Part shown: positions 2,554 through 36,600 of the stretch, in pieces
How the letters are laid out: every line of letters begins with the position of its first letter
Position numbering within the stretch: the first letter of the stretch is position 1
Assembly: GCA_016180645.1 (NCBI GenBank)
Contig: JACPAV010000049.1
Coordinates: forward strand, 1 to 40,269
Direction: 5' to 3'
DNA from: Nitrospirota bacterium
Lineage (GTDB): Bacteria > JACPQY01
Length of the DNA stretch: 40,269 nucleotides
Made by a program: the position numbers and the translations under genes
The notes under the pieces: generated by a model
What the model saw: only the letters and a program-made list of their open reading frames with translations
What the model was told of the DNA's origin: nothing
Databases searched by the model: none

Positions 2554-3396
2554 ATGCCACACATCATGGATGGACGTGTCGGCGGAGAGGGTACAAGAAG
2601 GATTTTCGTCACCCTATCGGCCGGAGTGCTTCTCCCTATTGCAGGCTTCGTGTTTTCACAACTCAGTGATGCGCAAGCCGCAGCGAGATACGCTTGGGCC
2701 CGCGCCACTCGCGTCGAAATCCGGTCGGCGCCGAACGAAAAACACGGCGTCGTGGGCGTCGTCTCGCGCGGAACGCGATTTCAAGTCACCGAAGAAGCCG
2801 ATGGATGGCTCCATGTCATCCCTCCGAGTTACGACATCCGCAGCCTCCCGGATGGATTCCGCCGGAAAGATCCCGCTACCTTCCAGGCAGGCTGGATCGT
2901 CGGAACCACAGCCTCCCAGACGGAAATCTTCGATGAAGCCACCGCGCTGCAGGTCTTCCAGGACTGGATTGAGGAACTTCGGAGGGATCCCATGATGAAG
3001 GAAGGCAGTTTCGCCGGGATCCGTCTCATCCCGTTGGCCGCCCTCTGGGCCTCCAACGAAACGCTCGAGTTCGACTTGGGCGTGGGACTCGAAGGCGAGG
3101 TGGAGACACAGATCCTCAGCGTGTTGGGCCAATGGACCTACCTCATGCTCGGCGCCCGCTTCTTCTCCGTGTTCCAGGAGGCGCGGGCCGTCGAACTTCG
3201 GCTTGTAGCGCGGGTGTGGGGCGTAGACAGCTCCGGAGTGATGGGGGCGCGCTACGAACCCATTGTGAAGATCCGCACGACACAGGACGATGCCCGCCGA
3301 ATCCGATGGGAGGAGGCCCTCGCCAAGCCGCAGGTGGATACCAAGCTCTTCTCCTATTTCTGGCAGCGCGAAAACGCAACGCTCACCACACGCTGA
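2554..3396 (+). CDS. Secreted SH3-like (SH3b) domain protein
   Basis: The start at 2554 was chosen because the promoter places the transcript start near 2524. A GGGA site lies 8 bases upstream. The 280-residue product has a signal peptide (GTRRIFVTLSAGVLL then a stretch ending in DAQA-A) and should be periplasmic or surface-exposed. Residues about 45-120 match a bacterial SH3-like domain: RVEIRSAPNEKHGVVG, then VSRGTRFQVTEEADGWLHV, then AGWIVG. These domains often bind peptidoglycan or peptides. The rest (about 130-280) is an alpha/beta region with no known motif. Its TGA overlaps the ATG of the next gene (TGATG at 3394-3398), so the two are probably translationally coupled. It may help to anchor or assemble the large lipoproteins that follow. 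Confidence 0.75.
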   Translation: MPHIMDGRVGGEGTRRIFVTLSAGVLLPIAGFVFSQLSDAQAAARYAWARATRVEIRSAPNEKHGVVGVVSRGTRFQVTEEADGWLHVIPPSYDIRSLPDGFRRKDPATFQAGWIVGTTASQTEIFDEATALQVFQDWIEELRRDPMMKEGSFAGIRLIPLAALWASNETLEFDLGVGLEGEVETQILSVLGQWTYLMLGARFFSVFQEARAVELRLVARVWGVDSSGVMGARYEPIVKIRTTQDDARRIRWEEALAKPQVDTKLFSYFWQRENATLTTR

Positions 3397-6300
3397 TGGT
3401 CCCGCCGCGCTTGGCTGCTCTCACGTTTTGCGGAGCCCTGGCCGCCTCTTGCGCCCAACCTACCCTCGGGCGGCCGCCCCAACCGCAGCTCCGCGGAGAA
3501 GACAAGGCGATCACCGTCAGTTGGGGCGCGGCCGAGGGCGCCTCCTCGTATGAGGTCTTCCACCGAGCATCGGACCCCCCCGATCTTGGGGACCCGGAGA
3601 GCCCACGCGTGGCGACCAAGGAGCTATCGGTGCGAATCGAGGAACTGGATCCCGGCTTGACGTACTACGTGAGCATTCTGGCCCTCCGCGGCTCGCAACG
3701 GAGCCAAGCTTCCTCCATCGCCTCCGTCACCACCGTTCCCCCCGCACCCGGCGCGCCGGACATTGCCCAGGTATCGAAGACGACCCTCCGCATCAGCTGG
3801 AAACCGGTGACGGGCGCCATCGACTACGAGTTGTACTATGACACGGAGTCCCAGTCCGGAAAGGCGGACGCCGATCGGAAATACGCGGGGAAACATGCCG
3901 CCCAAGGGGATTCGCCCATCGCCGTTCGCGACTGCACCCCGAATGCGGCTTGCGCCGTCACCCTCTCCGGCCTTGTCTCGGACAAGCCATACGTCTTCTC
4001 GGCGAAGGCCATCAACGGATCGGGGGCCAGCGGCTACTCGGAGGAGTCAAAGAAGCGACTTGGCCCGGGCCCATATCCCCCCCCGCCCTTGCTGAAAACA
4101 TCGTTGAAGTCCACGGGGCTCGGTCAATTTGAGCTTTCGTGGGAGGCGGTGGAAAATGCGGTCTCCTACGAAGTTCTCTACGACACCGACGCGGCGGGAG
4201 CGCCGTACGATTGCTCGGTCGCGCCGGTTGCGAAATCGGCCTGCCCCTTCGCCACCACCACCGGGACGACGCTGACGTTGAAAGACCTCAAACCGGACAT
4301 CCCCACCTCCGACCAATATCACTTCGCGGTCATTCCGATCAGCGAGAATGGAGTCCGCGGCTGCCAGCCGGGAGAACCGGGGTGCGCCGCAAAAGAAGCC
4401 GCGTGCGCGACGGAGTCGGTCGGGTGTCGCGCCGACCCACCCGTGGACGGCTTCGCCGTCAAGGCCACAACGGGAAAGAGCGCGGAGCTTACGCTCAGTT
4501 GGTCCAAGCTGGCCGGAGCGACCGGGTACGATCTGCTGATCGGGACGTCCACCGGGGCTGCGACCGGGACCTACGGCACAACGATCTCGCTGGGCGACGT
4601 AGCCGACTACGTCTACGCGGCGCCAAGCGGAGGCACGAAGTACTACCTCACGATACGCGGTCGCAACGGCCAGGGGGCCGGGCGCAACGCCGCGGAAGTG
4701 GGGGCGACAACCATTCCTTCCGCCCCCGCGAGCCTCTCGGCCTCGGCTTCGTACGTCTCGGGCCAAGTGAGTCTCAAGTGGACCGCCTCCACGGGGGCCA
4801 CCTCCTACAAAATCTATTACGATACAGATTCTTCGAACTCAACAAGCTCTGAGTTCGCGGGCAAGGAAATCAAGGAGGGGATCAGCCCGATCACGATCAC
4901 CGAGGCGGCCGCGTTCGCGAACTGCTCGGGGGGCGCCTCCACGGACCGGTGCACAACCCTCACCGCCTTGACCACAGGGTCGACCTACTCATTCGCCGTA
5001 CAGGGGGTCAATGAGAGCGGCGAAGGGGCGCTGAGCTCCACCACCACCTTCGTGCCGCTGGCCGCTCCCTCCGGCTTCAGCGCCGATGGCGACAATCAGA
5101 TCACCTTCTCGTGGTCCGCCGTCCCCGGCGCCTCGGGCTACAAAGTCTACTCGGATACGGAAACGAACGGCGGATCGGACGGGCGCTACGGCACCACCGT
5201 CACCACCGTGTCGGGCGGTTCGACGACCAGCGCCACGGCCACCGTGTCGGGCGGCTCCACGCTCTTCTTCGCCGTCACAGCCGTCTGGTCCGGCACAACG
5301 TCTCCCGCCAGCGAAAGCGCCTATTCCTCCCAACAGGCCCTGGCCGACGCCCCCACGGGATTCATCGTTCGGGGGTGCACGGGTCAGACCACGCTCCTTT
5401 GGAATCCGCTCAGCGGCGCCACGGACTACTACGTCTACTACGCGTCGAGCGCATGCACCTCAAGCACAAACAAGACCGGATGCTACAACGGTCCGGCCAC
5501 TCCCGTTTCCGGCACCAGCTACAAGAGCGCCACCGCCGCGGTCTGCGCGAACTCCACGACCGTCTCACCGGGCACATGCTCCACCTCCCAGTGCGCGGCC
5601 ACGATCACCGGTCTCACGAACGGAACGACCTACTACTTCTCCGTCCGCGGCGGCTTCGACGGCAAGAAGACGCCTTTCGCCTCGGAACTTTCCGCCGTTC
5701 CCCTGGCCGCCCCCACGGGCCTCTCCATCGCCTCATGCGGTTCCACCAGCGCCAACTTGAGCTGGACGGCCGTGACGGGTGCCGCGTCCTACCAAGTCTG
5801 CGTCAAATCCACCTCCGCGCCGTCGGCCGGAAGCTGTCCCGGCGTTCAAGCGGCAACAGGCACCACGGCAACCGTAACGAGTCTCAGCGTCGGAACCAAC
5901 TACTTTTTCACGGTGGACGCCCTCTCGGGCAGCACTTCCACGAGCGACCACAGTAGCTCCGTCAATACGACCCTCCTCGCGGCACCCACCAATGCCGACG
6001 TCATCAGCCCGAACGCGGGTCCCAGCGGGCGCGTGACCCTCTCGTGGACCTACTCCGGCGCCGGCACACCCGCCGGGTACAAGATCTACTACCAGACGGC
6101 CTCGTCCGTTTCCGCCTCGTGCAGCACCGGATGTATCACCGGCGAAACCGCGCAAGCCGCGGAAGACCTGGCAGCCACCGAAGACGCGGGACTGACCGGC
6201 GTGCCCAGCCCCCTCGGGGCCATCACCACCACCGCCACAACCTACACCATGACGGGGTTGGACGCATTGAAGGACTACTACTTCAAAGTCGCCGCCGTCA

Positions 6301-9038
6301 CGGTCTCGCCGCTCTGCGAGAGCGATCTCTCCAGCGAGATCAACGCCCTTGTCGGATGGCCCAAAACGCTGAGCGGAGGGACGCACTCCACCCCACTCAT
6401 CGACGACCTCGTCACGGGGGACAGCGGCAAGCTGGAGGTCTTCGTGCCCGACACGAACGGAAACCTGTACCTCTTCAACGAAGACGGCGTGCTCGTCGGC
6501 GGGTGGGGGCCGGTGGCTCTCGGAACGGCGGTCGATCGTCCGGCTGTGTCAGGCGACATCGACGGGGACGGAGCATTGGAGATTGTCTTCACCGCCAACA
6601 GCACGATCTACGCCTACGAGAACACCGGCGTGGCCGTAGCCAACTTCCCCAAGGTCATCGGTTCCGCGCTCACTTCGCCCGTCCTCGGCAATCTGGATGG
6701 CGATGCCGCACTGGAAATCTTCGTCGGTGCCGCAAGCGGCACAATCTACGCCATCAATGGAGATGCAACGGATGTTGCCGGCTGGGCAGGCGGCATCGCC
6801 CTTGCCGGATCACCCGCCATCCGCGGCGATCCCGTCATTGCCGACATCGACGTCGGCACGACCGTGCAGGACTCGGCCAACGAGATCATCTTCGGCGGCG
6901 ACAACGGAAAGCTCTACGTCTACAATCACGACGGCACCGTGCCCGCGGGCTGGCCCGCAACCATCGCCACGGTGGGAACGTGCCCGGCCAACCCACCCGT
7001 GTACAACGGCGTCGCCATCGCGGACATCGACGGAGACCGCGACATGGAAATTTTCGTGGCCGCAGGGAGCACCTGCACCACCTTCTCCGCCTTCCACCAC
7101 ACGGGCGCCACGGTCTCCGGATGGCCCAAAGACTACAATGCCGCCCTCTGCCAGACCTGCTGTGCAACCAGTTTCCCCATTTGTCCCTCCCCGGCAACCG
7201 GCGACATCAACGGCGACGGCGCCACGGACATCGTGGCCGCCAACTTCGCCGGCTACATCTATGTTTTCAACTCCAGCGGAGTTCTTCTCAGCGGCTGGGC
7301 CCCCTTGAACACGGGCGCCAACCTGCGGGCCTCACCCGAGATCGTCAACGTCGACAGCGATCTCGTTCCCGAGGTCATCATCGCCACCGCCGCCACCTCC
7401 AGCAACATTCTGGCCTACAACTACGACGGCTCCGCGGTCTCCGGCTTCCCGAAATCCGCCAAGGGCGCCGTGGGAGCCTCCATCTCGGTAGCCGACATCG
7501 ACTCCAACAACGTCCCGGAGCTTTTCGTGGTGGACACGGTGGGCCGCGTCAGCGTGATCCATGCCGCATCGACCTCGTTCTCCAACGCGCGCGTCTGGCC
7601 CATGTTCATGCGCGATCCCTCGCACGTAGCCCAGGTCGGCCCGCGCCTGGAAACCGGATGGCCGCGAAGCCTGGCCGCGAACGTAACCGCCTCTCCCGTC
7701 TTCGGAAATCTGGACGGCGGCACCGATCTCGAAGTGGCCGTCGCCAACGTCTCCGGCGGCAACGGCCGTCTCTTCGCCGCCAAATGGAACGGCGCGCTGG
7801 TCACGGGGTGGACGGCGCCGGCCGACGATCAAAGCCTCACCAGTACGGTCACGCTCCAGGACCCCCTGGCCGCCAACACATGCGATGATGCCGCGTCCAC
7901 CAGCGTCCTTGCGTCCCCCGCCCTCGGCAACCTGGACGGCGCGACGGACACCAACGTGGAAGCCTTCATCAGCACCGCCGGAGGAAACACCTGTGCCTAC
8001 GCTTTTGATCACGACAGCACACGGATCGATGTCGACAGCGGCGTCGTCGGCAATGCCTTCGACGCCGGCAGCGCCATCGAGATTACCGCCGCCCTCGCGA
8101 ACGCGGACGGAGGCACGGACACCAACCTGGAAGCGATCTTCGGATCCGTCACGGGCAATCTTTACGTCAAGAACGTGCCCGCGGGCACGAGCGTGGCCGG
8201 ATGGCCCGTGGCCATCTCCGCGGCCGGCTCCTGCACCGCCACTCCGGCCCTGCGGGCGGCCCCGGCCGTCGGCGACGTGGACGATGACAGCACCGATGAA
8301 ATCGTGATCGGAGGCGACAACGGCTGCATCTATGCCTTTGAACTCAGCGGCGCGCTGGTCGGGGGTTTTCCGTTGAAAGTCCCCACGTGCACGGGCGGCG
8401 ACAGCGACGCGCCCCTTCGCTCCTCGCCGGCCATCGGAAATCTCAATACCGACACGAAAAAAGAAATCGTCTTCGGCGCCGACAACAATTGCATCTACGC
8501 CTACAAGGACAACGGCGGGCTCATGACTGGATTCCCGGTGGCCACGGGAGGGAACGTCCGTTCCGCGCCCGCCCTCGGCAATCTCGATTCCGACACGGCC
8601 CTCGAGATCGTCGTCGGGAGCGACGATGGCAAGATCTACGCCCTGAACGGCGACGGCACGGCCCTCTCCGGGTGGCCCGTGGATCTGGCCACAAGCATCC
8701 AGAACTCTCCGGCCCTCGTGGATGTCAACGGCGACGGCAATCTCGATATCGTGGTGGCCGTGGGGAGCCGGATGTATGCCTACGATCGAACCGGCACCTC
8801 CCTCCCCGGCTTTCCCTTCCTCTTGGGCGGCCCGGTGAGTACCTCATCGCCCCAGGCGGGCGATCTGCGAAATGACCGTACGCTTCACCTTTCGGTCGGA
8901 ACGACCACCGACAACCGGCTGTACGTCTTCACGCTCGGCTACGGCAGCTACAATCCCGACAACTGCAAAGGCTGGCTGGGCTTCCACAACGCGCAGGAAA
9001 GGACCGGCGTCAACACCAGCCCCTCCTCCTGCCCATGA
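3396..9038 (+). CDS. Giant lipoprotein: nine FN3 domains plus 14 FG-GAP/VCBS blades
   Basis: The start at 3396 gives a lipoprotein signal ending in LAASC (Cys19). The frame is open further upstream, but only inside the previous gene. The mature protein has about 1860 residues. Residues 27-985 contain nine fibronectin type III repeats, each with a W-x-x-x-x-G-A-x-x-Y core such as ISWKPVTGAIDYELYYDT or LSWTAVTGAASYQV. From about residue 987 there are 14 FG-GAP-like blades with Asp-rich calcium loops (DIDGDGALEIVF, DINGDGATDIV, DVNGDGNLDIVV). These fit two seven-bladed propellers, each ending in a WPMFMRDPSHV- or WLGFHNAQERTG-like motif. No catalytic site is visible. The role is probably surface adhesion or display. 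It overlaps its neighbours at both ends (TGATG, ATGA). Confidence 0.88.
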   Translation: MVPPRLAALTFCGALAASCAQPTLGRPPQPQLRGEDKAITVSWGAAEGASSYEVFHRASDPPDLGDPESPRVATKELSVRIEELDPGLTYYVSILALRGSQRSQASSIASVTTVPPAPGAPDIAQVSKTTLRISWKPVTGAIDYELYYDTESQSGKADADRKYAGKHAAQGDSPIAVRDCTPNAACAVTLSGLVSDKPYVFSAKAINGSGASGYSEESKKRLGPGPYPPPPLLKTSLKSTGLGQFELSWEAVENAVSYEVLYDTDAAGAPYDCSVAPVAKSACPFATTTGTTLTLKDLKPDIPTSDQYHFAVIPISENGVRGCQPGEPGCAAKEAACATESVGCRADPPVDGFAVKATTGKSAELTLSWSKLAGATGYDLLIGTSTGAATGTYGTTISLGDVADYVYAAPSGGTKYYLTIRGRNGQGAGRNAAEVGATTIPSAPASLSASASYVSGQVSLKWTASTGATSYKIYYDTDSSNSTSSEFAGKEIKEGISPITITEAAAFANCSGGASTDRCTTLTALTTGSTYSFAVQGVNESGEGALSSTTTFVPLAAPSGFSADGDNQITFSWSAVPGASGYKVYSDTETNGGSDGRYGTTVTTVSGGSTTSATATVSGGSTLFFAVTAVWSGTTSPASESAYSSQQALADAPTGFIVRGCTGQTTLLWNPLSGATDYYVYYASSACTSSTNKTGCYNGPATPVSGTSYKSATAAVCANSTTVSPGTCSTSQCAATITGLTNGTTYYFSVRGGFDGKKTPFASELSAVPLAAPTGLSIASCGSTSANLSWTAVTGAASYQVCVKSTSAPSAGSCPGVQAATGTTATVTSLSVGTNYFFTVDALSGSTSTSDHSSSVNTTLLAAPTNADVISPNAGPSGRVTLSWTYSGAGTPAGYKIYYQTASSVSASCSTGCITGETAQAAEDLAATEDAGLTGVPSPLGAITTTATTYTMTGLDALKDYYFKVAAVTVSPLCESDLSSEINALVGWPKTLSGGTHSTPLIDDLVTGDSGKLEVFVPDTNGNLYLFNEDGVLVGGWGPVALGTAVDRPAVSGDIDGDGALEIVFTANSTIYAYENTGVAVANFPKVIGSALTSPVLGNLDGDAALEIFVGAASGTIYAINGDATDVAGWAGGIALAGSPAIRGDPVIADIDVGTTVQDSANEIIFGGDNGKLYVYNHDGTVPAGWPATIATVGTCPANPPVYNGVAIADIDGDRDMEIFVAAGSTCTTFSAFHHTGATVSGWPKDYNAALCQTCCATSFPICPSPATGDINGDGATDIVAANFAGYIYVFNSSGVLLSGWAPLNTGANLRASPEIVNVDSDLVPEVIIATAATSSNILAYNYDGSAVSGFPKSAKGAVGASISVADIDSNNVPELFVVDTVGRVSVIHAASTSFSNARVWPMFMRDPSHVAQVGPRLETGWPRSLAANVTASPVFGNLDGGTDLEVAVANVSGGNGRLFAAKWNGALVTGWTAPADDQSLTSTVTLQDPLAANTCDDAASTSVLASPALGNLDGATDTNVEAFISTAGGNTCAYAFDHDSTRIDVDSGVVGNAFDAGSAIEITAALANADGGTDTNLEAIFGSVTGNLYVKNVPAGTSVAGWPVAISAAGSCTATPALRAAPAVGDVDDDSTDEIVIGGDNGCIYAFELSGALVGGFPLKVPTCTGGDSDAPLRSSPAIGNLNTDTKKEIVFGADNNCIYAYKDNGGLMTGFPVATGGNVRSAPALGNLDSDTALEIVVGSDDGKIYALNGDGTALSGWPVDLATSIQNSPALVDVNGDGNLDIVVAVGSRMYAYDRTGTSLPGFPFLLGGPVSTSSPQAGDLRNDRTLHLSVGTTTDNRLYVFTLGYGSYNPDNCKGWLGFHNAQERTGVNTSPSSCP

Positions 9039-11050
9039 AATCGTCGTGCGTGGCGCGCGGCGCGTGGCGCGTTGTCTTCACGCTGCTCACGGCCTACGGC
9101 TCACTGCTCACGTTTACAGCCTGTCCGGCAACCGATCTCCCGTCTCTCGGGGCGGAAGCCTCCATTCAGGCCCTGGCCGATCCGGAAATCGTCCCCGCGG
9201 ACGGATCCTCGATCTCCACCATCACCGCCACCATCCGAAGAAAGGGAGGTGAATTTGCCCTGGATGGCACGGAGGCCGTCTTCGCCACCTCGATCGGCCA
9301 GGTCAGTTCGACCACGGTCCCCACCAAGGGCGGCCGGGCCATCACCTCCGTCGCCAGCCTGCAAACCGGAAGAGCCACCGTGACCATTCGAAGCGAGAAT
9401 CTCTCGACGAGATTGGAAATCACTTTTGTTCCCGCGGGACAGGTGGCGGCCATTCGCGGAAGCGCCACCTCGGTCGAGATCAACGTCGGCCAGAAGGAAC
9501 TTCCGATCTCAAGCTCCACCGTCCTCACGGCGCTGGTGAAGGACCTCAACGCCCAGCCGGTGTCGGACGGCACGGAAGTCGTCTTCTCCACGGAAGGCAC
9601 GAACACGGTGAATCCACCCAAAGCAAAAACTGTGGCCGGGATCGCGCGAACCACATTCACCGCCGGAAGCGTGTCGAGTGAATTCGACGTCGCCGCCCAA
9701 TCGGGCGGGGCATCGAGCCGGCTCCGGATCAAAGTCCTGGCGGCACGGGTCGCCTCGATCGAGTTCCTTGAACCGGAAAACTTCAAGACCCCCCTGGGCG
9801 TCATCGGTTCAGGAAGGACCGAAACCCTTCTCATCCAGGCAAAGGTGCTGGACGAGCTGGATCGGCCCGTGGCCAACGGAACACCGGTAACCTTCAGCCT
9901 TTTCGGCGTGGGCGGGGGCGAGACCCTCCAACCGGGTGCGCCCGCCGCAGCCGCCACCCTCAGCGGAATCGCGACCACCCGGCTCCGCACGGGCAAGGTG
10001 GCCGGCGCCGTCCAGGTGCAGGCCGCCATCGATCTGGGCAGCCAAGGTACCGCCTCGGCCGTTTCCCCCACAATCCAAATCCGCGCCTTCCGGACCACGG
10101 TGGGACGATTCCTGGTCGTGCCGAACCCCGATAAACTCAACCTCGCCGGATTCCTGGACCCCAACCTCTTGTTCGATGTGAACGTCGCCGCCGGCGACCG
10201 ATACAACAACCCGGTGGAGGACCTCCTGGTCGCCGTCATCTCGGAATCCGGTGTCGTGCCTACACCGGAGAAGAACGTCACCGGAGCGACGGGCCAGGTC
10301 GGAATCAAGCTCCAGACCGGTCCAATGTGGCCGGTCGACCTCGCCCCGGCATGCCTCGACCGCGCCTCCGCCGTCTATGGAGACTCGTGCCTCAGCCCGG
10401 AGGATGGACTCGTCAGCCTCACGGCCTACACATCCGGGGAAGAGGGCTACTTCGATGTGAACGGGAACGGGGCTTTCGACCTCCAAGAAGACATCTTCTG
10501 CGTCGAAATCGGAAAGGCGCTGTCTTGCCCCGATCCCCTCCGGCCGGACACCTGCACCACTCAAGCCCAAGCCCTGTGCAACGCCGTACATGACATTTCC
10601 GAACCCTTCGTCGATTCCAACGACAATGGAGCGCGCGACGTTTTCGAAACGTTCATCGATGCCAACGAAAACGGCATCTTCGACGACCGGAATGGCCGGT
10701 GGAACGCCTCCACCTTCGTCTGGGACCGAACGAAAATCCTGTTCACTTCCAAGCCGGCCGTGAAACTGATTTCACTCGCGGACAAGACCGCCACGATCTA
10801 CGCCGGGGACCAGAATGGGAATCCCCTGACAGGCGGGAGCAGGATCGATTTCAAGATGAAGACGATCCCCGGCTCTTCGATCGGCTTCGTGGTCGGCCAG
10901 ACCACCTCTTTCACGGTCAAGTCCACCTCCAACCCGGGGACTCAAACGTTCCACTCCCTCCAATTCAATTCCGACCCGAAAGGCGCCACACTGGACATCG
11001 AGGTCACCTCCAAGGAAAACGGCGACCTCACGACCCGGATCACCTTCTAA
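9035..11050 (+). CDS. Lipoprotein with Big_1 (invasin-type Ig-like) domains and EF-hand-like loops
   Basis: This 671-residue protein starts at an ATGA overlap with the preceding stop. A signal sequence ends in FTAC (Cys30). Residues about 45-350 contain three Big_1-type domains, with the typical pattern of a variable polypeptide insertion (VLTALVKDLNAQPVSDGTEV, then AGIARTTFTAG). A less clear fourth domain follows. Between about residues 470 and 560 there are three calcium-loop-like motifs: DVNGNGAFDLQED, DSNDNGARDVFE and DANENGIFDD. The signal peptide region is encoded by a low-complexity GCTCACGG-type tract (9050-9120), which is unusual. It is a clear paralogue of the minus-strand lipoprotein at 16898-20341. 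It is probably a surface structural or adhesive protein, third gene of the coupled trio. Confidence 0.82.
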   Translation: MKSSCVARGAWRVVFTLLTAYGSLLTFTACPATDLPSLGAEASIQALADPEIVPADGSSISTITATIRRKGGEFALDGTEAVFATSIGQVSSTTVPTKGGRAITSVASLQTGRATVTIRSENLSTRLEITFVPAGQVAAIRGSATSVEINVGQKELPISSSTVLTALVKDLNAQPVSDGTEVVFSTEGTNTVNPPKAKTVAGIARTTFTAGSVSSEFDVAAQSGGASSRLRIKVLAARVASIEFLEPENFKTPLGVIGSGRTETLLIQAKVLDELDRPVANGTPVTFSLFGVGGGETLQPGAPAAAATLSGIATTRLRTGKVAGAVQVQAAIDLGSQGTASAVSPTIQIRAFRTTVGRFLVVPNPDKLNLAGFLDPNLLFDVNVAAGDRYNNPVEDLLVAVISESGVVPTPEKNVTGATGQVGIKLQTGPMWPVDLAPACLDRASAVYGDSCLSPEDGLVSLTAYTSGEEGYFDVNGNGAFDLQEDIFCVEIGKALSCPDPLRPDTCTTQAQALCNAVHDISEPFVDSNDNGARDVFETFIDANENGIFDDRNGRWNASTFVWDRTKILFTSKPAVKLISLADKTATIYAGDQNGNPLTGGSRIDFKMKTIPGSSIGFVVGQTTSFTVKSTSNPGTQTFHSLQFNSDPKGATLDIEVTSKENGDLTTRITF

Positions 11051-16751: not shown

Positions 16752-16780
16752 GAACTGCGTACCACTCTACCCCTCTCGTC

Positions 16781-16831
16781 GTCCCCGCGCAGGCGGGGAC
16801 CCAGAATCTGGATTCCTGCTTCCGCAGGAAT
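16781..16831. repeat. Paired hairpins between convergent lipoprotein genes
   Basis: GTCCCCGC-GCAG-GCGGGGAC at 16781-16800 and ATTCCTGC-TTCC-GCAGGAAT at 16812-16831 are two perfect stem-loops in the convergent gap. The pair matches a widespread type of intergenic repeat (GTCCCCGCCTGCGCGGGGAC / GTCATTCCTGC). It is well placed to act as a bidirectional transcription barrier. Confidence 0.7.
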
Positions 16832-16897
16832 GACGGGACAGGAAAGTCCTTCAGTCAAGGGGCCGACGACTAGCCGCCGAAGGCTGAACGCTGAGCC

Positions 16898-19800
16898 CTA
16901 CTGATACTTCCCGTTGATTGTGGCGGTAATCTTCCCGGCCCCTGAAGGGCCAAGGTTCTTGCAGCCCGTCAAGTCGACCGAGATGGACGCATCAATGGTC
17001 GTCGGACTGGATGTGCAAATGTCCGGATCGGTGAACGAGAAGCGGAACGCCGTGCATCCCGTGCTCAATCCCGTATCCGGTTCCACACAGTCAGCCACGG
17101 TGAAGTTTGGGGCTGTCTGAGTGGGATTGGTGCATCCTGTGGTTCCCCCACCGCTGGTCGTGGAAGATCCCGACGGAAAGTTCACGGTAAGACTGCATCC
17201 GGCGACCACCGGGTTCTTCAGTTGGTCCGCCACGTGGATGATGAAATTAGCACCGCACTTATCCGCAATCAGGAATTCCTGATTGGTAAGGTAGGTACCG
17301 GTGCAACCGGAACCACAATTACCGGAAGGGGTTCTCGGCGAACATTCAATGCTGAAGGTGCCCACCCTAGTCGACCAGACGACGCGTATGTCGTCCCACA
17401 CGGAAGCATTGGAGGCTTCGTAACGGCCGTTCGGGGGATCGTAAACGCCATTGCCGTTAATATCAAAAAAGATCTCGTCCAAATCCTTCTCGGGATAGCC
17501 TGCATCCCCCAAAACGCACTCGTTGGAATTGATGAAGGGTTCCCCACGATCGTGCAGGAGGCGGACGCAGGCCTTGTCCGGCATCTTGGCGGTATCCCGG
17601 CTCGTGGAATCCTTGTGACGTAATTTGGCGTATCCGGTCGTGGGGGCATTGGTTCCAGTTCCGCAAGCACTTGTGCAGAGTATGCAGAAAATGTCCTCAC
17701 CCAGGCGGCAGACCCGGGGTAGGGCCAGTTCAGTGGCCGAGCATTCGCCATCCCTGTCCCGGTCGTCGCACGAATTGAATTCGTTGCTTTGGCAGATCCC
17801 ATCCCTCGGCCCAGAGCCCCGATCATCGCATTCATCCCACACTCCGTTGGATTCCGCCGGATCGGCGCTACACCCCGGTTGATCGGCGGGACACTGCTTC
17901 CCTGGGATGCAACCGCCATCCTCTATGTGAAGTCCGTCCCCATCCATGTCGATGAAGCCTTCGCTCCCCTTGGTGTAGGCGACGACGGTTCCGCGCCCAT
18001 CACTCGGATCGTCGTAATCGGCAGGGGTTCCCTCGTTGGAGGAGTCGAAATCATTGGGACAGTAAGAGGGACCAGGAAACGACTCGATCACGCGCGGAAG
18101 CGGCGCAGCCGAGACCAGCGTAGCCGTTACGCTGCCGGTGTCCGAAAGCTCCTTGCCTCCACCCCCTTGTATGATGCCGGCCTCGGTTGCAAAAAAGACG
18201 GAGGTGCCGGGAGTCGGGGGGTTTCCATACCTATCGCCAACGAAGGCCGTTACATCCACCTCTTCTCCGAAAATGAGTAGCCCGATGATATTGAATGGAT
18301 TTTCCGCCAGACCGAAATGATCGGTCACGGGCGGGCCAGACTGAATGATGATGTTCTGGATTGTGCCGGTGATCACCTTGCCACCTGGGACCGTTACATC
18401 CACACCCACTTGAACATTTCCTGGAACGGTTCCACCGCGAATCCGGGTGCTCGCCTCCCCTTGCACCGATTCCTCGAAGGCTTCATCGCTCCTGGCCCCC
18501 GCTTCGGAGGCCAACGACTCGCCGCCGCCGCCCTTCACAAGGTAGAAACGGACCTTCGTGCCGTCCCTCACAGGACTTCCGGACTGGTCTTTCACGGCGA
18601 TCTTCAACTCGGCGGTATCGTTCCCCGTGCCCAAGACCCCGATCAGGATCGGGCTCTGGTCAAATTCGATGGTGTAGCCGGAGGAGGACGTTACAATGAT
18701 GGGGACCTGTTTCTGGATGAACTCGACCGTCTCGGTGGACGAGGAAGTCCCCCCCCCCCCGGATCCGGAACAAAGGTCCGCGCATGGGTCGGTAGCGGGA
18801 CAGCCGACATATCCAAGAACCGCAGTGGTCTGAGGTTTGAATCCGGCCTTGAACGTAATCCTCGCCAACCCTGCCCCGTCGGTCGTGGCGATCGTCCCGC
18901 GAGTTGATGTTTCTACCCGATGCGGAAGGCACGTACAGAAGCGGACCACCTGATTTGAAAGAGGTTTTGATGCTGTGTCCAACGCTCGCGCCAAAACGGT
19001 AACCTCGTTCTCGACAGGAGTGGTATCCGGATCATCATCATTCTGCACTCGGCAAGGGGTGACCTCCGGTCCCGCTGGACAATTCTCATAGGTCAAGTCC
19101 AGCTTGCTGATTTTCCCCACGTCGCACGAAATGGCCGTCCCGACGAACGTAACCGTCAAAAGTTGGCTCACGCATCCGCTGGCAGGACAATTCTCCAGCG
19201 TTGAGACCACCGTCGCCTTTGCCACTCCGCTGGACGGCTGAAGACTGACCAGCGCCGCCGAAGCATTGCCGGTAGAATCGGTTTGTACTTCGTAAGACTT
19301 TGAACGATTCGGAAAGATCCCGGCGTCGGTTTCGAATCGAACCGTTGCGCCGGCAACCCGGGCGCCGTTCTTGTCCGCCACGCCCGCCGAGAGCTTGATG
19401 GTGGACGCCCCATCCGCATCGGCTACGGCCTTGTCCGCGGAAAGGATGGCCGCCGGGCCATTGCCAACAACCAAGTAAGTATACCCCGTGGCCGAGGTGG
19501 TCCCAAACGCCGCCGTCACCTCCACCCGGAGGAAAACGTTGGACGCATTCTGACTCGTGCTCGGAATCGGTTTGAGCTTCGCCATGGCGACGCCGGTGTT
19601 GTCCAGCGAGACGCTGACGGAACCTGCCAGAGTCGATCCGGCCGTTGTCGTCGCGAGCTTCGCCGTTTCGATATCGTCCACCTTGAACTGCACCGCAGCG
19701 CCTGCAGGAGGAGTCGTGGTGCCCAGGAGAACGGTAGCTTGGATCACAGCCTCGTCGGCAGTTCCCCTTCCCATCACCAGCTTACCGTCTTGAACCGTAA

Positions 19801-20341
19801 CCGTCACTTGCGGCGCCGGTTCCTTGAACCGTACAGATGATTTAGCGCTCGCCTTCGACTTCGAATCCTGCAACTCGCACTTGACGGGAAGCTCCAGTCC
19901 GGACTGATAGGTGCTCGTGGCCACCGTCTTCGTAACCCCATCATCCCCGGTGATGCAGTTCTCGGTGCAGCTCAGGGCGAGGGGGTTCTCGCTTGCAAAA
20001 TCCTTGGGGAGATCGACACTGAACTTGAGCTTCTGGTCCTTGGCCGGGACATCCGTCTTGGTCTTGGAATCCCGCCGAGCCGCAATGCACCGGACTTCGA
20101 CTGAATCCTTCCCATCCGTGTACGCCGCACACTTGACGGGGTCGGTGCACTTGCGGCCGCCCTTGTAGATCTCCATCTTGAGTTTTACGGAGCCGAGGGT
20201 GCCACCGGTCTTGCAAGAGGGATCGCTGGGATTCGCCTTGCAATCCACCCCCCCCCCTCCGACCGTCGATGTCGCGCAAGAACCAGCAAGGACCATCAGG
20301 AAACACAGAAGAGTGGGCGCGAAAGCCGGCGGTTTTCTCAT
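16898..20341 (-). CDS. Large lipoprotein with Big_1 domains and EF-hand-like loops
   Basis: The start at 20341 puts the signal peptide directly at the N-terminus (MRKPPAFAP, then LCFLMVLAGSC, Cys22). An ATG nine codons upstream is possible. The 1147-residue protein has several Big_1-type domains (for example IKLSAGVADKNGARVAGATV and ELKIAVKDQSGSPVRDGTKV). A Cys- and Asp-rich region follows with calcium-loop-like motifs (DMDGDGLHIED, DRDRDGECS, DINGNGVYDPPNG). The order of parts and motifs such as GEPFINSN and NGRYEAS match the lipoprotein at 9035-11050, so the two are paralogues. A run of ten G codes GGGG soon after the lipid cysteine, and a run of twelve G codes another GGGG mid-protein. Probably surface-exposed; function not known. 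Confidence 0.82.
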   Translation of the reverse strand: MRKPPAFAPTLLCFLMVLAGSCATSTVGGGGVDCKANPSDPSCKTGGTLGSVKLKMEIYKGGRKCTDPVKCAAYTDGKDSVEVRCIAARRDSKTKTDVPAKDQKLKFSVDLPKDFASENPLALSCTENCITGDDGVTKTVATSTYQSGLELPVKCELQDSKSKASAKSSVRFKEPAPQVTVTVQDGKLVMGRGTADEAVIQATVLLGTTTPPAGAAVQFKVDDIETAKLATTTAGSTLAGSVSVSLDNTGVAMAKLKPIPSTSQNASNVFLRVEVTAAFGTTSATGYTYLVVGNGPAAILSADKAVADADGASTIKLSAGVADKNGARVAGATVRFETDAGIFPNRSKSYEVQTDSTGNASAALVSLQPSSGVAKATVVSTLENCPASGCVSQLLTVTFVGTAISCDVGKISKLDLTYENCPAGPEVTPCRVQNDDDPDTTPVENEVTVLARALDTASKPLSNQVVRFCTCLPHRVETSTRGTIATTDGAGLARITFKAGFKPQTTAVLGYVGCPATDPCADLCSGSGGGGTSSSTETVEFIQKQVPIIVTSSSGYTIEFDQSPILIGVLGTGNDTAELKIAVKDQSGSPVRDGTKVRFYLVKGGGGESLASEAGARSDEAFEESVQGEASTRIRGGTVPGNVQVGVDVTVPGGKVITGTIQNIIIQSGPPVTDHFGLAENPFNIIGLLIFGEEVDVTAFVGDRYGNPPTPGTSVFFATEAGIIQGGGGKELSDTGSVTATLVSAAPLPRVIESFPGPSYCPNDFDSSNEGTPADYDDPSDGRGTVVAYTKGSEGFIDMDGDGLHIEDGGCIPGKQCPADQPGCSADPAESNGVWDECDDRGSGPRDGICQSNEFNSCDDRDRDGECSATELALPRVCRLGEDIFCILCTSACGTGTNAPTTGYAKLRHKDSTSRDTAKMPDKACVRLLHDRGEPFINSNECVLGDAGYPEKDLDEIFFDINGNGVYDPPNGRYEASNASVWDDIRVVWSTRVGTFSIECSPRTPSGNCGSGCTGTYLTNQEFLIADKCGANFIIHVADQLKNPVVAGCSLTVNFPSGSSTTSGGGTTGCTNPTQTAPNFTVADCVEPDTGLSTGCTAFRFSFTDPDICTSSPTTIDASISVDLTGCKNLGPSGAGKITATINGKYQ
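18749..18760. repeat. Homopolymer tract of 12 C (12 G in the coding strand)
   Basis: A run of twelve C on the plus strand lies within the minus-strand Big_1 lipoprotein gene, coding GGGG in a Gly/Ser-rich stretch (SGSGGGGTSSS). Runs this long slip readily during replication. Confidence 0.9.
20248..20257. repeat. Homopolymer tract of 10 C (10 G in the coding strand)
   Basis: A run of ten C on the plus strand codes GGGG a few residues after the lipobox cysteine of the minus-strand lipoprotein. One-base slippage here would truncate almost the entire mature protein. Confidence 0.9.
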
Positions 20342-30299: not shown

Positions 30300-33200
30300 A
30301 TGCCCTACTCGGTTTTTCTCGGGGCCTTCCATCCGAATCTCGAAAACGCGTTCGTCCAGCGTCTTCGCCAGGTGCGACGGGAATGCGGTCCCATCGCCCC
30401 CCTGGTCATCGTCACCCCTTCGCGGCATCTCCTCGAGCGACTCCAGTGGGTGCTTGCTCGGGAAGGTCATTGGCTTGCCCTCCACTTCTGCACACTCCAT
30501 GGGCTGGCCCTGCGGATTCTCGAAGACGCGACGGGAGTTCCAGCGCCCCCTCCTTCCGCTCTCATGCTTCGGGAGATCATCCGTGCACATCTTCGCACCG
30601 TCGGGGGCCCCTTGGCCGGCCTGGCTGAACTCCAAGCGGGACCCGATTCCGTGGCTTCGACCCTGCGCGATCTTCAAGAGGGTCGGGTCGACCCCCGCCT
30701 GGCCCACCTCTGGCTGGAAGAACAATCGAACGCCTCAGCCGGGCGCAAGATGGAGATCACCGAGATGGGGGAACTCACCCACGCAAGTGAACTGATGGCA
30801 TTCTTCACCGACCTTTCCGACTCCCTCCTTCGGAAGAACCTCGTCACGGAGGCGAACCTCGCGGAAATGTCCATCGAGCATGTTCCCCGGTCCGGTTTTC
30901 TCGCCCGCGCCGCATGGATCTTTTACTACGGGTTCTACGACCTGACGCAGATTCAGACCGATCTCTTTCACACCATCGCGTCGAATCACGCGGTTGACGC
31001 ATTCATTCCCATCGCCGTCGCCCCCAAGCGCAGGGCGCGTCCCTCCTACGAATACGCCAATCGATATTTCGAGTCCTTCCTCCGTGGACTGGCAAGAGAG
31101 ATCACAATTTGCTCGGATCCCGATCCCAGCCCCCTTTCGGGCCTCCACGCAAGATTGTTCGATCTCCCAACGGGAGAGGCGTCACCGGACGATGCCTTCC
31201 ACGTGGTCAGCGTCTCAGGAGGCGAGGATGAAGTGCGCACCGCGGCCAAATGGATCCTCCGCGCCCACGAGGAACAGGGCACCCCCTTCTCGGAGATCGG
31301 GCTCGTCGCGCGAAATTGGGGCGGTTATTGGAGCCGGCTGCGGCGGATCCTGGGTGAGCACGGGATCCCCTTCACCACCCCCGAGCAAAAACCCGCCGCC
31401 GAACACCGGCTCATCCAAACCCTGCTCGCGCTCCCCAATTTCATGCTGGATGGATTCCGACGCGGCGCCGTGATCGAGCTCCTGTCCAGCCCGTACGTCC
31501 GGGTTCCCGATTCCATCCGCCGCGAGCCGGCCATATGGGATTACGCGTCTCGTCTCGCCGGCATCACCACTCCCGAATCGTGGGAGGCGCGACTCGGGCA
31601 CCTCGCCACAAAGATTTCGGAAGATTCGGAAGACGAACTCGGCCCGGCGGTCCCCCGGAAAAGCATCGAGACCCTCCTTCACATGGTCAAAACTCTCCGC
31701 AAGGCGGTCGAGTCCTTGACCACCGGATCCGCTCCGTGGGCCGATCACGCGCGGCGCCTGAAAGAGATCGTGTCCACGTTGCTCATCACTCCCCCTGCCG
31801 GTGAATCGCCAACGGAGGAGGAGAACTCGATCATGGACCAGTTCACCACCGTGCTCGGAGAATTGGAGATGCTCGATGGCATCCTTCCCGCGGTGACCGC
31901 GGATGAGTTCTACCGGGGCTTGGATCATGCCTTGCGCAGCATCGAGCTTCCGGCCGGTCCGCCGCGATCGGACGGCGTGAAGATACTGACGGCGATGTCG
32001 GCGCGAGGCTACGCGTTCGATCTCTTGATCCTTCTCGGCATGAACTCCAAAGGGTTCCCGCGCGCGGTCGAAGAGGATCCCTTGCTGCGTGACCGCTCTC
32101 GGGGCTTGATCACACGGCGCGCAAGGAAGGAGATCGAAAAGCTCGGCCACTACATGAGGCTGGCCGAGAAAATCGCCGGGCACGAAGAGGACCGGCTCCT
32201 GCTCAGCCTGCTCGCCAATGCGGCACGCCGGCAGATGGTGGTCCTGTATCAGCGGTCGGACGACGATGGCGCGCCTGCTCTGGCTTCTCCCTTCGTACAC
32301 GAGCTCCAGCAGGCAGCCGCCGGTGGGTTGGCCCCTCGCCAAGAGATTCGCCTCCCGCGCCCGGACCGTCAAAAAACGAACTTCGAGCGATCTCCAGTCG
32401 CGGACCTGTGGACGGGATCGTTCACCACACCTCGCGAGATCGCGGTCGCCGGCGCCGCCGTGAGCCGTCCGGTCGAAACCCTCGATACCTTCCTCGAATA
32501 TCCCGTCGAAGCCCTGGTTCGCTCCCTCGGGGCGATGAAGATGATCGAGAGCTGGACGGTCCCCGGCGCCTACGACGGACGGGTCAGGCCGGCCGATCCA
32601 CCGGCGATCATGAATTCCCCCGGGGGATTCTCGCCGTCCCTCCTGGAACGCTACGTCTCCTGCCCTTTCCGATTCTTTTCGGAGAGGGTACTGGATCTCG
32701 AGCCGTGGCCGGACGTGGAAGAAGACGATTGGCCCACCCCGATGCTCCTGGGAAACTTCGTGCATTCCGTCCTGGCCCGGTTCGGCCGCTGGGTGGACCA
32801 ATCGGGGCTTCTGCGCGGAAAGGTAACGGACTGGAGACCGGCGTTTTCGAAAACCTTTGACGAGGCCATCGAGGAGTTCGCGAGCGAACCTGGGAGAGGG
32901 TATCCCACGGTGTGGGAAGCGAGAACAGGTGCGATCCGAAACCTCCTGCTGGATCGGATCATCCCGGCGGATCTGGAACGGCTGAGTACACTGGGGGCCG
33001 ACCGACTCCTCGTCGAGAGGAAAGCCTCAACCCTGCTTGACCTCGAGACCGAAGGCGTCGAACGGCATGTCCGGCTCACCGGCCGGGTGGACCGCATGGC
33101 CCTTCTTGGGCCGCACCAGGCACCCCACGCCGTGGAAGTCATCGATTGGAAATTCAAGACCTCAAAAACGGACGGATTTCTCAAGAGCTGCTGGCAGAAT

Positions 33201-33656
33201 GCCGCGCGTGGGCGGAACCTGCAACCTCCCTTGTATGCCCTCCTCGCCGGTGAAATCCTGCGCCAGGAGGGAATCCAACCGCCCGCCGACGTGAGGACCA
33301 CGTTGGTTCCCATCGGCCCCCGGCTGGAGGGGGACCCTTTTCGGCTGGAGGCTTTCACGAATGAGGACTGGTCCGGAGAACGTGGGGAGCGGTTGACGTC
33401 CCTATTGGCCGGAATCGTCCATCGCATTCACGCGGGTGACTTTCAGCTCAGGCCGGCCGGTTCCCATTCGCCTTGTGACCGGTGCGAGTATCGTATCATG
33501 TGCCGGCGCGACCATCCCCCGTCCCGCCGCCGCGCAGAGCACGGGGCCACGTTCGGATGGCTGGAAACCGTCGCCCGGACGGACAAACCGGAGAGCGAGA
33601 AGAAACCTGCTCGCACCACCCTGTCGAAAACCCGGAAAGCAAAGTCTCCATCATGA
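30300..33656 (+). CDS. addB: AddB-like helicase/nuclease subunit with C-terminal Fe-S nuclease
   Basis: AddB pairs with AddA to resect double-strand breaks for recombination. This 1118-residue protein starts at ATG 30300 after AAGGGGGG. It has an inactivated UvrD-like helicase fold: LVIVTPSRHLLERL near the N-terminus, then KILTAMSARGYAFDLLILLGMN about residues 560-580. No GxGKT Walker A is seen. The C-terminal PD-(D/E)XK nuclease shows GRVDRMA and VIDWKFKT. Iron-sulphur ligands are Cys788 (YVSCPFRFF) and Cys1059, Cys1062 and Cys1068 (CDRCEYRIMC), the AddB arrangement. The C-terminal tail is basic. It overlaps addA by four bases (ATGA), so the two subunits are made together. Confidence 0.85.
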   Translation: MPYSVFLGAFHPNLENAFVQRLRQVRRECGPIAPLVIVTPSRHLLERLQWVLAREGHWLALHFCTLHGLALRILEDATGVPAPPPSALMLREIIRAHLRTVGGPLAGLAELQAGPDSVASTLRDLQEGRVDPRLAHLWLEEQSNASAGRKMEITEMGELTHASELMAFFTDLSDSLLRKNLVTEANLAEMSIEHVPRSGFLARAAWIFYYGFYDLTQIQTDLFHTIASNHAVDAFIPIAVAPKRRARPSYEYANRYFESFLRGLAREITICSDPDPSPLSGLHARLFDLPTGEASPDDAFHVVSVSGGEDEVRTAAKWILRAHEEQGTPFSEIGLVARNWGGYWSRLRRILGEHGIPFTTPEQKPAAEHRLIQTLLALPNFMLDGFRRGAVIELLSSPYVRVPDSIRREPAIWDYASRLAGITTPESWEARLGHLATKISEDSEDELGPAVPRKSIETLLHMVKTLRKAVESLTTGSAPWADHARRLKEIVSTLLITPPAGESPTEEENSIMDQFTTVLGELEMLDGILPAVTADEFYRGLDHALRSIELPAGPPRSDGVKILTAMSARGYAFDLLILLGMNSKGFPRAVEEDPLLRDRSRGLITRRARKEIEKLGHYMRLAEKIAGHEEDRLLLSLLANAARRQMVVLYQRSDDDGAPALASPFVHELQQAAAGGLAPRQEIRLPRPDRQKTNFERSPVADLWTGSFTTPREIAVAGAAVSRPVETLDTFLEYPVEALVRSLGAMKMIESWTVPGAYDGRVRPADPPAIMNSPGGFSPSLLERYVSCPFRFFSERVLDLEPWPDVEEDDWPTPMLLGNFVHSVLARFGRWVDQSGLLRGKVTDWRPAFSKTFDEAIEEFASEPGRGYPTVWEARTGAIRNLLLDRIIPADLERLSTLGADRLLVERKASTLLDLETEGVERHVRLTGRVDRMALLGPHQAPHAVEVIDWKFKTSKTDGFLKSCWQNAARGRNLQPPLYALLAGEILRQEGIQPPADVRTTLVPIGPRLEGDPFRLEAFTNEDWSGERGERLTSLLAGIVHRIHAGDFQLRPAGSHSPCDRCEYRIMCRRDHPPSRRRAEHGATFGWLETVARTDKPESEKKPARTTLSKTRKAKSPS

Positions 33657-36600
33657 ACGAGCAGCTTCCCGACTCCGAGGCACGTCAGCAGGCGTGGGAA
33701 GGAACAGAGCAGAATCTCATGATCGAGGCGGCCGCGGGAACGGGGAAGACGGAGGTTCTGGCTTTCCATTATCTTTCCCGCCTCTTCAGCCGAAATCGTT
33801 CGTTCTCACCCGGGCGGCCGTTGACTCCAGAGGAAATCGTGGCCATCACGTTCACGGATAAGGCGGCAGCCGAAATGCGACTCCGGATCTCGGAACACCT
33901 CGCTCGGATCGCTTCGGGCTTGCCGTGGGACCCCCATCCGCCGGCGACAGAGGCCGAACGTGCCGGGAGGCTGAGAGCGCTCCTCGATCACGTAGAATGC
34001 GGCCCCGATCGCGCCGCGGAAATGTCCCGAGATTCTCTGCGCCGCCTTGAGCGATCGCGCATCGGCACTATGCACAGCTTCTGCGCCCACCTGCTTCGGA
34101 TGCACCCCGTCGAATCCGGGGTCGATCCGGGCTTTGGAGTCGACAGCGGCGCGGAATTCGATCGCGTCTTCGATGTTGAATGGGAAAAATGGGCCCGGAA
34201 AATCCTTTCGAAGCCCGGCGATCCCGCGCTGCGGACGATCCTCACGGAGTTCTCCCTGCCGGACTTGAAGGCATTCGCGAAATCCCTTTCCGCGCACCTT
34301 CGGCCCGATGATCTGGCTGAATCCCTCGGTGGGCAGGGCCGGGATCCTGCGGCCTCCGATTCGCCGATCCTCCAAGCCGTCCGGCTTCTTGATCCGTTTG
34401 CGAAGCAGACCCGCGAACTTTTCATACGGAAAGGCTTCCTCCCCTTCGACGCCCTCCTCTCCAGAAGCGTCCGGTTGCTGCGCTCCCACCCCACGATCCG
34501 GAAGCAAATCCGCCAGGATTTCCGGGCGATCCTGGTCGACGAGTTTCAGGACACCGATCCGATCCAGGCCGAGATCGTGCTCTGGCTGTCGGGTGAACGG
34601 GATCATCCCCCGAACCCCGCTTGTCCCATGGGTCGATGGTCGCTTGAACGGGGGCGACTGTTTGTCGTGGGGGATCCCAAGCAATCGGTCTACTCCTTCC
34701 GGAATGCGGATGTGGCCATTTACGAAACGGTGAAAGAAATCCTCAGAGCGAATTCAGCCCACCTGCTGTATCTCCAAACCAATTTCAGGAGCGCGCCGGC
34801 CATACTCCACGCATCAAACGCAATCTTCAGCCATGTCTTCCAAGGACCGGACAATCCCCGGCACGTGCCCCTGATGCTCCAGCCGGGGCATGAAGGGCTC
34901 CCAGGAGCGGTGGAGTTGCACTGGTGCGAAACGGGCGACGCGGATGCGGAGAAGGCGGGGGACCTCGAAGGCGCCGCACTGGCTCAGTGGCTGCGCGAGT
35001 CGATCGAGCCGGAGATCACCCAACCGGATGGGACCGTCGAATGGGGACGCGCAGCCATCCTGGCAAGAAAGATGACCACCATCTCACCCATTCTGGATCG
35101 GCTCCGACAGTCAGGCATTCCCCACAGTGTCCATGGAACCAAACATTTCTATGCCCGCCCGGAAGTGACAGACTTCCTGAACCTTCTTCAAGCCATCGAC
35201 AATCCGGCTGACCGGACGTCTCTCGCGGGCGTCCTCCGTTCCCCCCTCGGAGGGTGTACCGACCAAGACCTGCTCGATCTGAAGTTACTGGGTGGCTTGG
35301 ACTATGCAACCGCCGGCAAGAAACTCCCCGCGGGAGTCCGGTGGCTTTACGACGTCCTGGCGGACCTGCACCGGTCCTCGGAACGGCGCACGCTTGAGGA
35401 AGTCGTGGATCTGGCGCTCAACCGCCTTCCGGTTCTCGAAATCGCCTCGGCCGGCTACGATGGGGAGCAGGCCGTGGCCAATCTCCTGAAAATCCGGAGA
35501 TTGGCGAGCGAGGAAGGGGCGATGGGACGATCGCTCCGGGCCTTCGTCTTCGGCATGCGGCGGAGAAGGAGGGATCTGGAAGAGGAAGCCGAGAGCCCCA
35601 TTTCCGAGGAATCGATGGATGCCCTCCACGTCCTCACGATTCACCAGGCGAAGGGGTTGGAATACGACGTGGTCATCGTCCCGATGATGAATCAGGGAAT
35701 CCAGCTTCGGTCCGACAAGACCGCCCGAGTGACTTGGAATCCGTTCCGGAATTTCACGGCGGCCGTCCTCGGTGAATGGAACACGGGAGACGTGGAAGCT
35801 TTGGAAACCCTGGGCGAGCAACTGGCCGGGCAGGAAGCCAGGCGGCTTCTTTATGTCGCGACAACTCGTGCCCGGAAACGACTCGCTTTCTGGGGAACGA
35901 GCAGGCAAGGCGTCCGGAGCAAGCTGCCCCTAATGGGAATTCTCCAAGAGGTTCCCGGTTTCAGGGAAGCCTTGGCCACAGCGGGCGATGGACCCACCCT
36001 GTTCAGGCCAGATGAAGAGGCCATGATACAAATCCGACGAATCGGCGCGCCGGACGCGTCCGAGTCTGGCCGACGGAATATCGCCGCCGCGCCCCGTTCT
36101 CTTTCCATCCCTCCGGATTATGCGGAACGTTGGAAAGCGCGCATGGAGGATCATCGCACCCGGCAGAATCGCCCCCTCTTCCTCAGCCCCTCGTCCGCCG
36201 GAACTTCGGACGCGCACCGGGGACCCGCCCTCCATCCCGCGCCATCTCCAAACTCGACGCATGGCTCCCACCCGCTTTCAGCTCGTCGTCCGTGGACGTG
36301 GGACTTGCGCGAAGCCAAGCAAGGCCCACGAGCGGAGGGGAGGACCGCGCTTCTGATTGGTTCGCTGTGCCACGCCACTTTGATGCGGATGGATTTCACC
36401 CAACCGACGGATTTGGCCCGATGGGTTGAGCAAGCCGGAGCACAAACTACCATCGAAGCCGGACCTGTGCCCGCGGATGCCCTGAATGCCGCAAGGGGAA
36501 TTCTCGATCGCTTTTTGGAATCGGTGGTTTTCGCCGACCTGGCGCGAGCGGAAATCCTGGCGCGTGAACTCCCCTTCATCCGCCGGATGGACGACGGTCG

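Follow-up and report, generated by a model that had tools for sequence, protein, structure and literature searches.

The minus-strand gene for the lipoprotein-like protein P0001 (16898–20368) lies in a 40,269-nucleotide stretch of DNA (JACPAV010000049.1; hereafter the window) from one of two compared genomes of the phylum JACPQY01, and it contains two long runs of guanine, one of ten (20248–20257) and one of twelve (18749–18760). The excess of such runs is a property of the whole genome and is not special to this gene. Both runs are tentatively read here as members of a dispersed, phylum-specific, polar DNA motif made of C and ten G (C-G10), comparable to Chi or to the FtsK-orienting polar sequences (KOPS), GGGNAGGG in E. 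coli and V. cholerae. Such a motif would tolerate a 5′ T and rarely an A, and would be present in more than 100 copies per genome, irrespective of gene conservation and codon phase. It would be kept by selection, a translocating DNA machine reading one orientation in the manner of FtsK with KOPS or AddAB/RecBCD with Chi, while the glycine-rich or proline-rich stretches that it encodes and the risk of slippage would be side effects; the selection and the machine are the parts that we infer.

A Genome-Wide Spike at Ten

The window is the entire contig C49 of its genome (G000; 4,716,505 bases in 65 contigs). The only other genome of the phylum compared (G001) belongs to the same family and a different genus, and is a groundwater metagenome-assembled genome (MAG), 84% complete, from a k141 coassembly of the NC_groundwater project with the site code 'Ag'. 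A review table gives the phylum the name Candidatus Figaniota, with 2 groundwater genomes of 3.29–4.72 Mb (PMC11382960). Counted over whole genomes, runs of exactly nine, ten, and eleven G number 79, 110, and 21 in G000 and 139, 185, and 37 in G001, with 8 and 7 runs of at least twelve, respectively. The other 288 of the 290 genomes hold at most 33 runs of ten each, and a first comparison with 58 other genomes had given 0–11 each. Runs of at least ten recur about once per 14 kb in G001 and once per 34 kb in G000.

The distribution of lengths was examined in samples of 1.20 Mb of G000 and 0.80 Mb of G001, where runs of 6 to 12 G occur 425, 104, 34, 17, 41, 3, and 2 times and 358, 83, 42, 34, 52, 9, and 0 times, respectively; an extended G000 sample adds 20 stretches that were mostly picked for their tracts and were therefore excluded from density estimates. 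A second-order Markov model predicts 2.6 matches to ten G in the 1.20 Mb, against 53 observed, and in both genomes ten-G matches exceed expectation at every Markov order from 0 to 6, although the margin at order 6 is modest. Compared with 20 synonymous-codon shuffles in which the proteins are kept, coding runs of exactly ten are about seven times commoner than expected (36 vs 4.9 in G000 and 55 vs 8.3 in G001). On the same null, runs of six, seven, and eight are depleted (observed/expected 331/505, 85/148, and 25/46 in G000; 395/653, 101/210, and 56/78 in G001), and runs of nine in G000 stand at 13 observed against 15 expected. Pure codon bias was rejected as a cause, as three consecutive glycines written entirely with GGG occur 17 times against 2.8 expected, whereas glycine pairs written in this way occur 85 times against 105.

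These counts bear on the main rival explanation, in which a replication-strand-dependent process, such as an unusual state of polymerase or repair, grows G runs by substitution to about ten and then stops, with selection removing only frame breaks and no reader protein involved. Depletion of the intermediate lengths, where enrichment would be looked for, and the sharp fall from length ten to eleven argue against such a mutational habit, which is considered somewhat doubtful. A spike at one exact length also looks technical at first sight, and G001 is a MAG, as G000 probably is too. However, ten other MAGs of the NC_groundwater project, five of them sharing the 'Ag' site code, contain 0–5 runs of ten each; most tracts keep the reading frame, and some encode conserved-looking motifs (LGGGM, AHITGGG, and, in both genera, MGGGLPVG); and the strand and flank patterns described below are not expected from base calling. 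On the evidence of the ten MAGs and the in-frame state, miscalled homopolymers, whether from sequencing or from assembly, were rejected as the main explanation and are highly improbable.

Separately, the longest G run of G000 by far is one of 33 in G-rich surroundings (C16:79099–79131, equivalent to L251:15099–15131) with further G runs beside it; it could be a genuine repeat or an error of assembly. The words CGTAGGGGAG, GGGAGCATCT, and AGACCCTCCC, together with the palindrome core TGACAGTATACTGTCA, are also over-represented in the G000 sample, where they are dispersed, and are perhaps intergenic repeats of the repetitive extragenic palindromic (REP) type or a regulator site.

The Preceding Base and Replication-Strand Polarity

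The base 5′ of a run of ten is C in 80% of cases in G000 and 88% in G001, and A in 2% and 0%, compared with C before 42–53% of runs of four to eight. A 5′ C preference of this strength appears only from about nine G upward, a further point against growth by a mutational habit. Beyond this C, the search for a longer motif around the tract found nothing strong in both genomes.

Polarity was assessed by taking the G-rich strand of the surrounding 40–60 kb, not a mapped replichore, as the leading strand, and by excluding contigs shorter than 50 kb and stretches with a skew below 0.02. Genic tracts of 10–12 in G001 encode glycine 28 times and proline 2 times in leading-strand genes, and glycine 3 times and proline 17 times in lagging-strand genes (Fisher p = 1.6e-8); therefore, G sits on the leading strand whichever strand codes. 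This arrangement is found in 45 of 50 genic tracts of that genome, against 985 of 1529 runs of five or six (p = 8e-5). The leading-to-lagging ratio is 48:6 for C-G10 and 25:18 for exact C-G7 (p = 7e-4), and this near absence of polarity in the shorter run again argues against the mutational habit, even if strand asymmetry as such would suit a replication process and counts in its favor. Neighbouring tracts of G001 also lie on the same strand in 43 of 54 pairs, compared with 182 of 351 for runs of six, a measure independent of GC skew. A signal of the DNA-uptake type was set aside owing to the strand polarity of G001, from which its exclusion is deduced. In the window, all three runs of at least ten have their G on the minus strand, which is its G-rich strand (skew −0.070).

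Reading Frame and the Genes Affected

Long runs of G are prone to slippage during replication, and loci that slip freely are expected to drift towards one frame in three. The frame of tracts of at least nine was scored by codon usage over 300 bases on each side, low-confidence ones being set aside. Among assignable tracts, the reading frame is kept by 48 of 52 in the extended G000 sample and by 42 of 50 in G001 (84–92%), with 62 and 81 tracts non-assignable, respectively; the test is blind near gene starts, a common position of contingency tracts. Because the control runs of seven gave similar figures (47 of 50 and 41 of 50), frame breaks are no commoner at long tracts than at short ones, and with these fractions the tract class does not show the mixed ON and OFF frames of contingency loci. 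The three tracts of the window were all low-confidence, and the two near gene starts, at 20248 and 38970, received a low-confidence 'shift' score.

Nor are dispensable and surface genes the only ones to carry tracts. In G000, the gene for ribosomal protein L2 (L091:4326–5150) carries a run of eleven and a run of nine, and Pfam matches place other tracts in AIR-synthase-type and M16 peptidase genes. The G001 tracts include those in SecY, in a methylmalonyl-CoA-mutase-type protein, and in a Glycos_transf_4 protein (L125:434–1672, PF00953) that is read as MraY-like; for a G000 open reading frame (ORF) taken for MraY by eye, the frame that was searched matched no Pfam family, and this ORF was not counted. 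A class-III aminotransferase, seemingly HemL, has a run of ten in both genera. Poly-C makes up 28–38% of genic tracts. In some orthologue pairs the tract faces other residues without gaps: the AGGGA encoded by the L2 run of nine in G000 faces AGTAI in G001, and IIPPP of the methylmalonyl-CoA-mutase-type protein in G001 faces IIPAS in G000. Substitution at tolerant sites can thus give rise to tracts, in line with the mutational habit.

The preliminary description had taken tract length as the mark of a contingency locus, in which the run of ten behind the lipid-anchor cysteine of P0001 and the run of twelve change length at a high rate and switch a surface protein. This part of it found no support: with 110 runs of exactly ten in G000, mostly in frame and extending to core genes, contingency is not the default reading here, and phase variation of P0001 is held to be unlikely. 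Genes with two tracts of at least nine, as in P0001, are at the level of chance in G000 (3 of 682 sampled genes, 2.63 expected by length), and G001 has 11 against 7.74 expected. The in-frame state of assignable tracts throughout the genome likewise argues against phase variation, with the proviso that gene-start tracts, that of P0001 included, are mostly non-assignable. In its favor, the tracts of G000 lean mildly towards gene starts (the first fifth of the gene contains 14 of 41, p = 0.03, compared with 11 of 64 in G001, without a lean), the P0001 run of ten is placed just past the signal peptide of a protein with surface-type domains, and an out-of-frame run of thirteen occurs in another secreted-protein gene of G000. 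True slippage loci may thus exist within the larger tract set, the P0001 gene perhaps among them.

The latter secreted-protein gene (L243, about 7576–9723; minus strand of contig C33) is a candidate for true phase variation. Its run of thirteen directly follows the signal peptide and, as assembled, puts the roughly 679 codons of downstream ORF out of frame; a run of ten is found some 75 bases upstream of the start codon. Among the other genomes, the unrelated 1.8 Mb genome G042 has 3, 11, and 11 runs of nine, ten, and eleven, respectively, and looks like a classical contingency-locus genome.

Comparison with Known Systems

Similar to KOPS, C-G10 is G-rich and skewed to the leading strand, beyond background only in G001. 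The V. cholerae study retained, as KOPS candidates, families of motifs that were skewed by 80% or more and recurred at least once per 30 kb (PMC2533119). By these values, G001 falls within both limits (48:6; about one run per 14 kb), and G000 stands at 20:5 and about one per 34 kb, its excess over background being not significant. The differences are that C-G10 is a homopolymer of ten while KOPS is an 8-mer, and that polarity in G000 does not rise above background.

Chi sites, according to PMC8022716, are over-represented, G-rich, polar with respect to the leading strand, and expected in core genes, with one per 5 kb in E. coli. C-G10 shares the over-representation and the G-richness, its polarity exceeds background in G001 only, and the window holds AddAB-like genes. 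It departs from Chi in being a homopolymer without enrichment in conserved genes, and the tracts of G000 are about seven-fold rarer than Chi in E. coli going by that density. As a first choice, the KOPS-like variant is ranked above the Chi-like one on density and skew, since the KOPS limits are reached in G001 and nearly in G000 and conserved genes are not enriched.

The poly-G contingency loci of Campylobacter resemble the present tracts in their modal lengths of 9–10 and their location mostly inside ORFs. In a large set of draft genomes, the share of them in the ON state approached the level given by neutral drift (PMC6321876). In contrast, runs of ten here outnumber runs of nine, poly-C accounts for 28–38% of genic tracts, 84–92% of assignable tracts are in frame, and core genes are hit. 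Orsi et al. (2010) described 5′ poly(A) and poly(T) tracts that many prokaryotes carry in their coding genes, with a clear gene-start bias (PMC2831843), unlike the poly-G/C tracts of JACPQY01, whose lean is slight in G000 and absent in G001. No report of such a ten-G motif turned up among the listed titles and abstracts of open-licence papers.

Candidate Reader Proteins

Two overlapping plus-strand genes of the window encode a pair that is a possible Chi-reading enzyme, to judge by domain matches. The first (30300–33656) is an AddB-like PD-(D/E)XK nuclease subunit (PF12705, 1.6e-25; TIGR02773, 7.7e-13, far below its cut-off). The second (33482–36832) is an AddA/RecB-like UvrD helicase with a PD-(D/E)XK domain (PF00580, 2.1e-46), for which TIGR00609 (1.7e-71) and TIGR02785 (1.4e-68) both score below their cut-offs. 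For a KOPS-type system, the FtsK gamma domain is present in G000. The mismatch repair gene mutS1 is likewise present in G000, and neither a match nor a first-look candidate was found in G001 (84% complete), even though G001 has the higher tract density; this counts in favor of the mutational habit.

Evidence Weighing against a Selected Motif

Several results run counter to a selected, polar motif, beginning with the polarity of G000. There, G is on the leading strand in 23 of 32 tracts against a G-run background of 66% (p = 0.58), neighbouring tracts share a strand in 27 of 38 pairs compared with 248 of 406 (p = 0.29), and C-G10 stands at 20:5 against 26:12 for exact C-G7 (p = 0.39). The excess itself shrinks under a sixth-order Markov model to 53 vs 26 in G000 and 103 vs 77 in G001, a model that already includes most of a ten-G run, and runs of nine are somewhat in excess in G001 on the synonymous shuffle (34 vs 21). 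In extended samples that take in runs of eleven and include stretches picked for odd flanks, the share with a 5′ C is lower (76% and 81%, with A at 10% and 5%), and the window's own run at 20248–20257 has A and T as its flanks.

Conserved genes, for which only between a quarter and a third of the other genome served as reference, are not enriched in tracts. G000 has 7 tracts over 159 kb of conserved genes and 34 over the other 811 kb (4.4 vs 4.2 per 100 kb), and G001 has 13 over 159 kb and 51 over 805 kb (8.2 vs 6.3 per 100 kb); this similar density inside and outside conserved genes counts in favor of the mutational habit. As for a reader, no close relative of the window's AddA-like protein was found in G001, where the best match is 28% identical, nor was FtsK gamma found in that genome, which is 84% complete. 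With only two genomes, moreover, descent and selection are inseparable. Taken together, C-G10 as a polar, selected motif stays the tentative preference. The fuller form of that proposal is more speculative: C-G10 might be a ten-G homopolymeric orientation signal of the KOPS or Chi type, invented in JACPQY01 and selected despite amino-acid changes and the risk of slippage in essential genes.

The Lipoprotein Gene and Its Surroundings

P0001 has 1156 residues, comprising a signal peptide followed by Big_1/invasin-type Ig-like domains (PF02369 Big_1, 2.1e-14; PF09134 Invasin_D3, 2.9e-08). The start at 20341, the second methionine of the ORF, gives the better signal peptide (MRKPPAFAPTLLCFLMVLAGSC), and the lipobox AGSC, identified by eye, presumably fits the PROSITE lipoprotein pattern. 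The lipoprotein-like start given in the preliminary description was thus upheld, and the two tracts proved real, at 12 and 10 bases, and located on a single coding strand inside the one ORF. They read as C12 and C10 on the plus strand, and the ORF stays open across both as assembled, each being in frame. No full-length homologue of P0001 was found in the 59 other genomes compared, and a search of genome contigs for a homologue also found none.

The run of ten (20248–20257) begins in codon 38, a few residues past the putative lipid-anchor cysteine. Its flanks, 5′ A and 3′ T, are unusual, and it is the sole run with a 5′ A among 41 runs of ten in the first G000 sample. The run of twelve (18749–18760) lies at codon 537 with 5′ C and 3′ A, encodes four consecutive glycines, and is one of the 8 runs of at least twelve in G000. 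A one-base change in the run of ten would lead to a stop at residue 61 or 143 of 1156, confirming the earlier statement that slippage there would remove almost the whole protein; the corresponding change in the run of twelve would lead to a stop at residue 559 or 570. The truncation by the run of ten, its atypical flanks, and the excess of the run of twelve over the modal tract length speak for phase variation of this particular gene, which also has, as poly-G contingency loci do, a homopolymer of at least eight G in or near a surface gene. A separate contingency class of tracts with A and T flanks is not claimed, their contexts being mixed: one lies in a DegT-like motif (by eye), some are seemingly intergenic, and one is at a stop/start junction.

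The third tract of the window, a run of ten at 38970–38979 (minus strand; C10 on the plus strand) with a 5′ C, lies near the start of a GFO/IDH/MocA-like ORF (38964–39965, plus strand). Elsewhere in the window, a second Big_1 Ig-like protein (9035–11050) is 31% identical to P0001 over about 250 residues, and its neighbouring gene (3132–9038) carries FN3 and FG-GAP repeats. Two short palindromic stretches at 16780–16860, between the P0001 gene and the next, resemble intergenic REP-type repeats.

Significance for the JACPQY01 Lineage

A lineage with more than 100 ten-G runs per genome, and with tracts that are mostly in frame and reach even the gene for ribosomal protein L2, either possesses a machine that needs these runs or has a replication and repair habit that makes and tolerates them. 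The tracts are also a warning that length by itself is no basis for inferring phase variation, since a run of ten G is part of the background in the JACPQY01 phylum.

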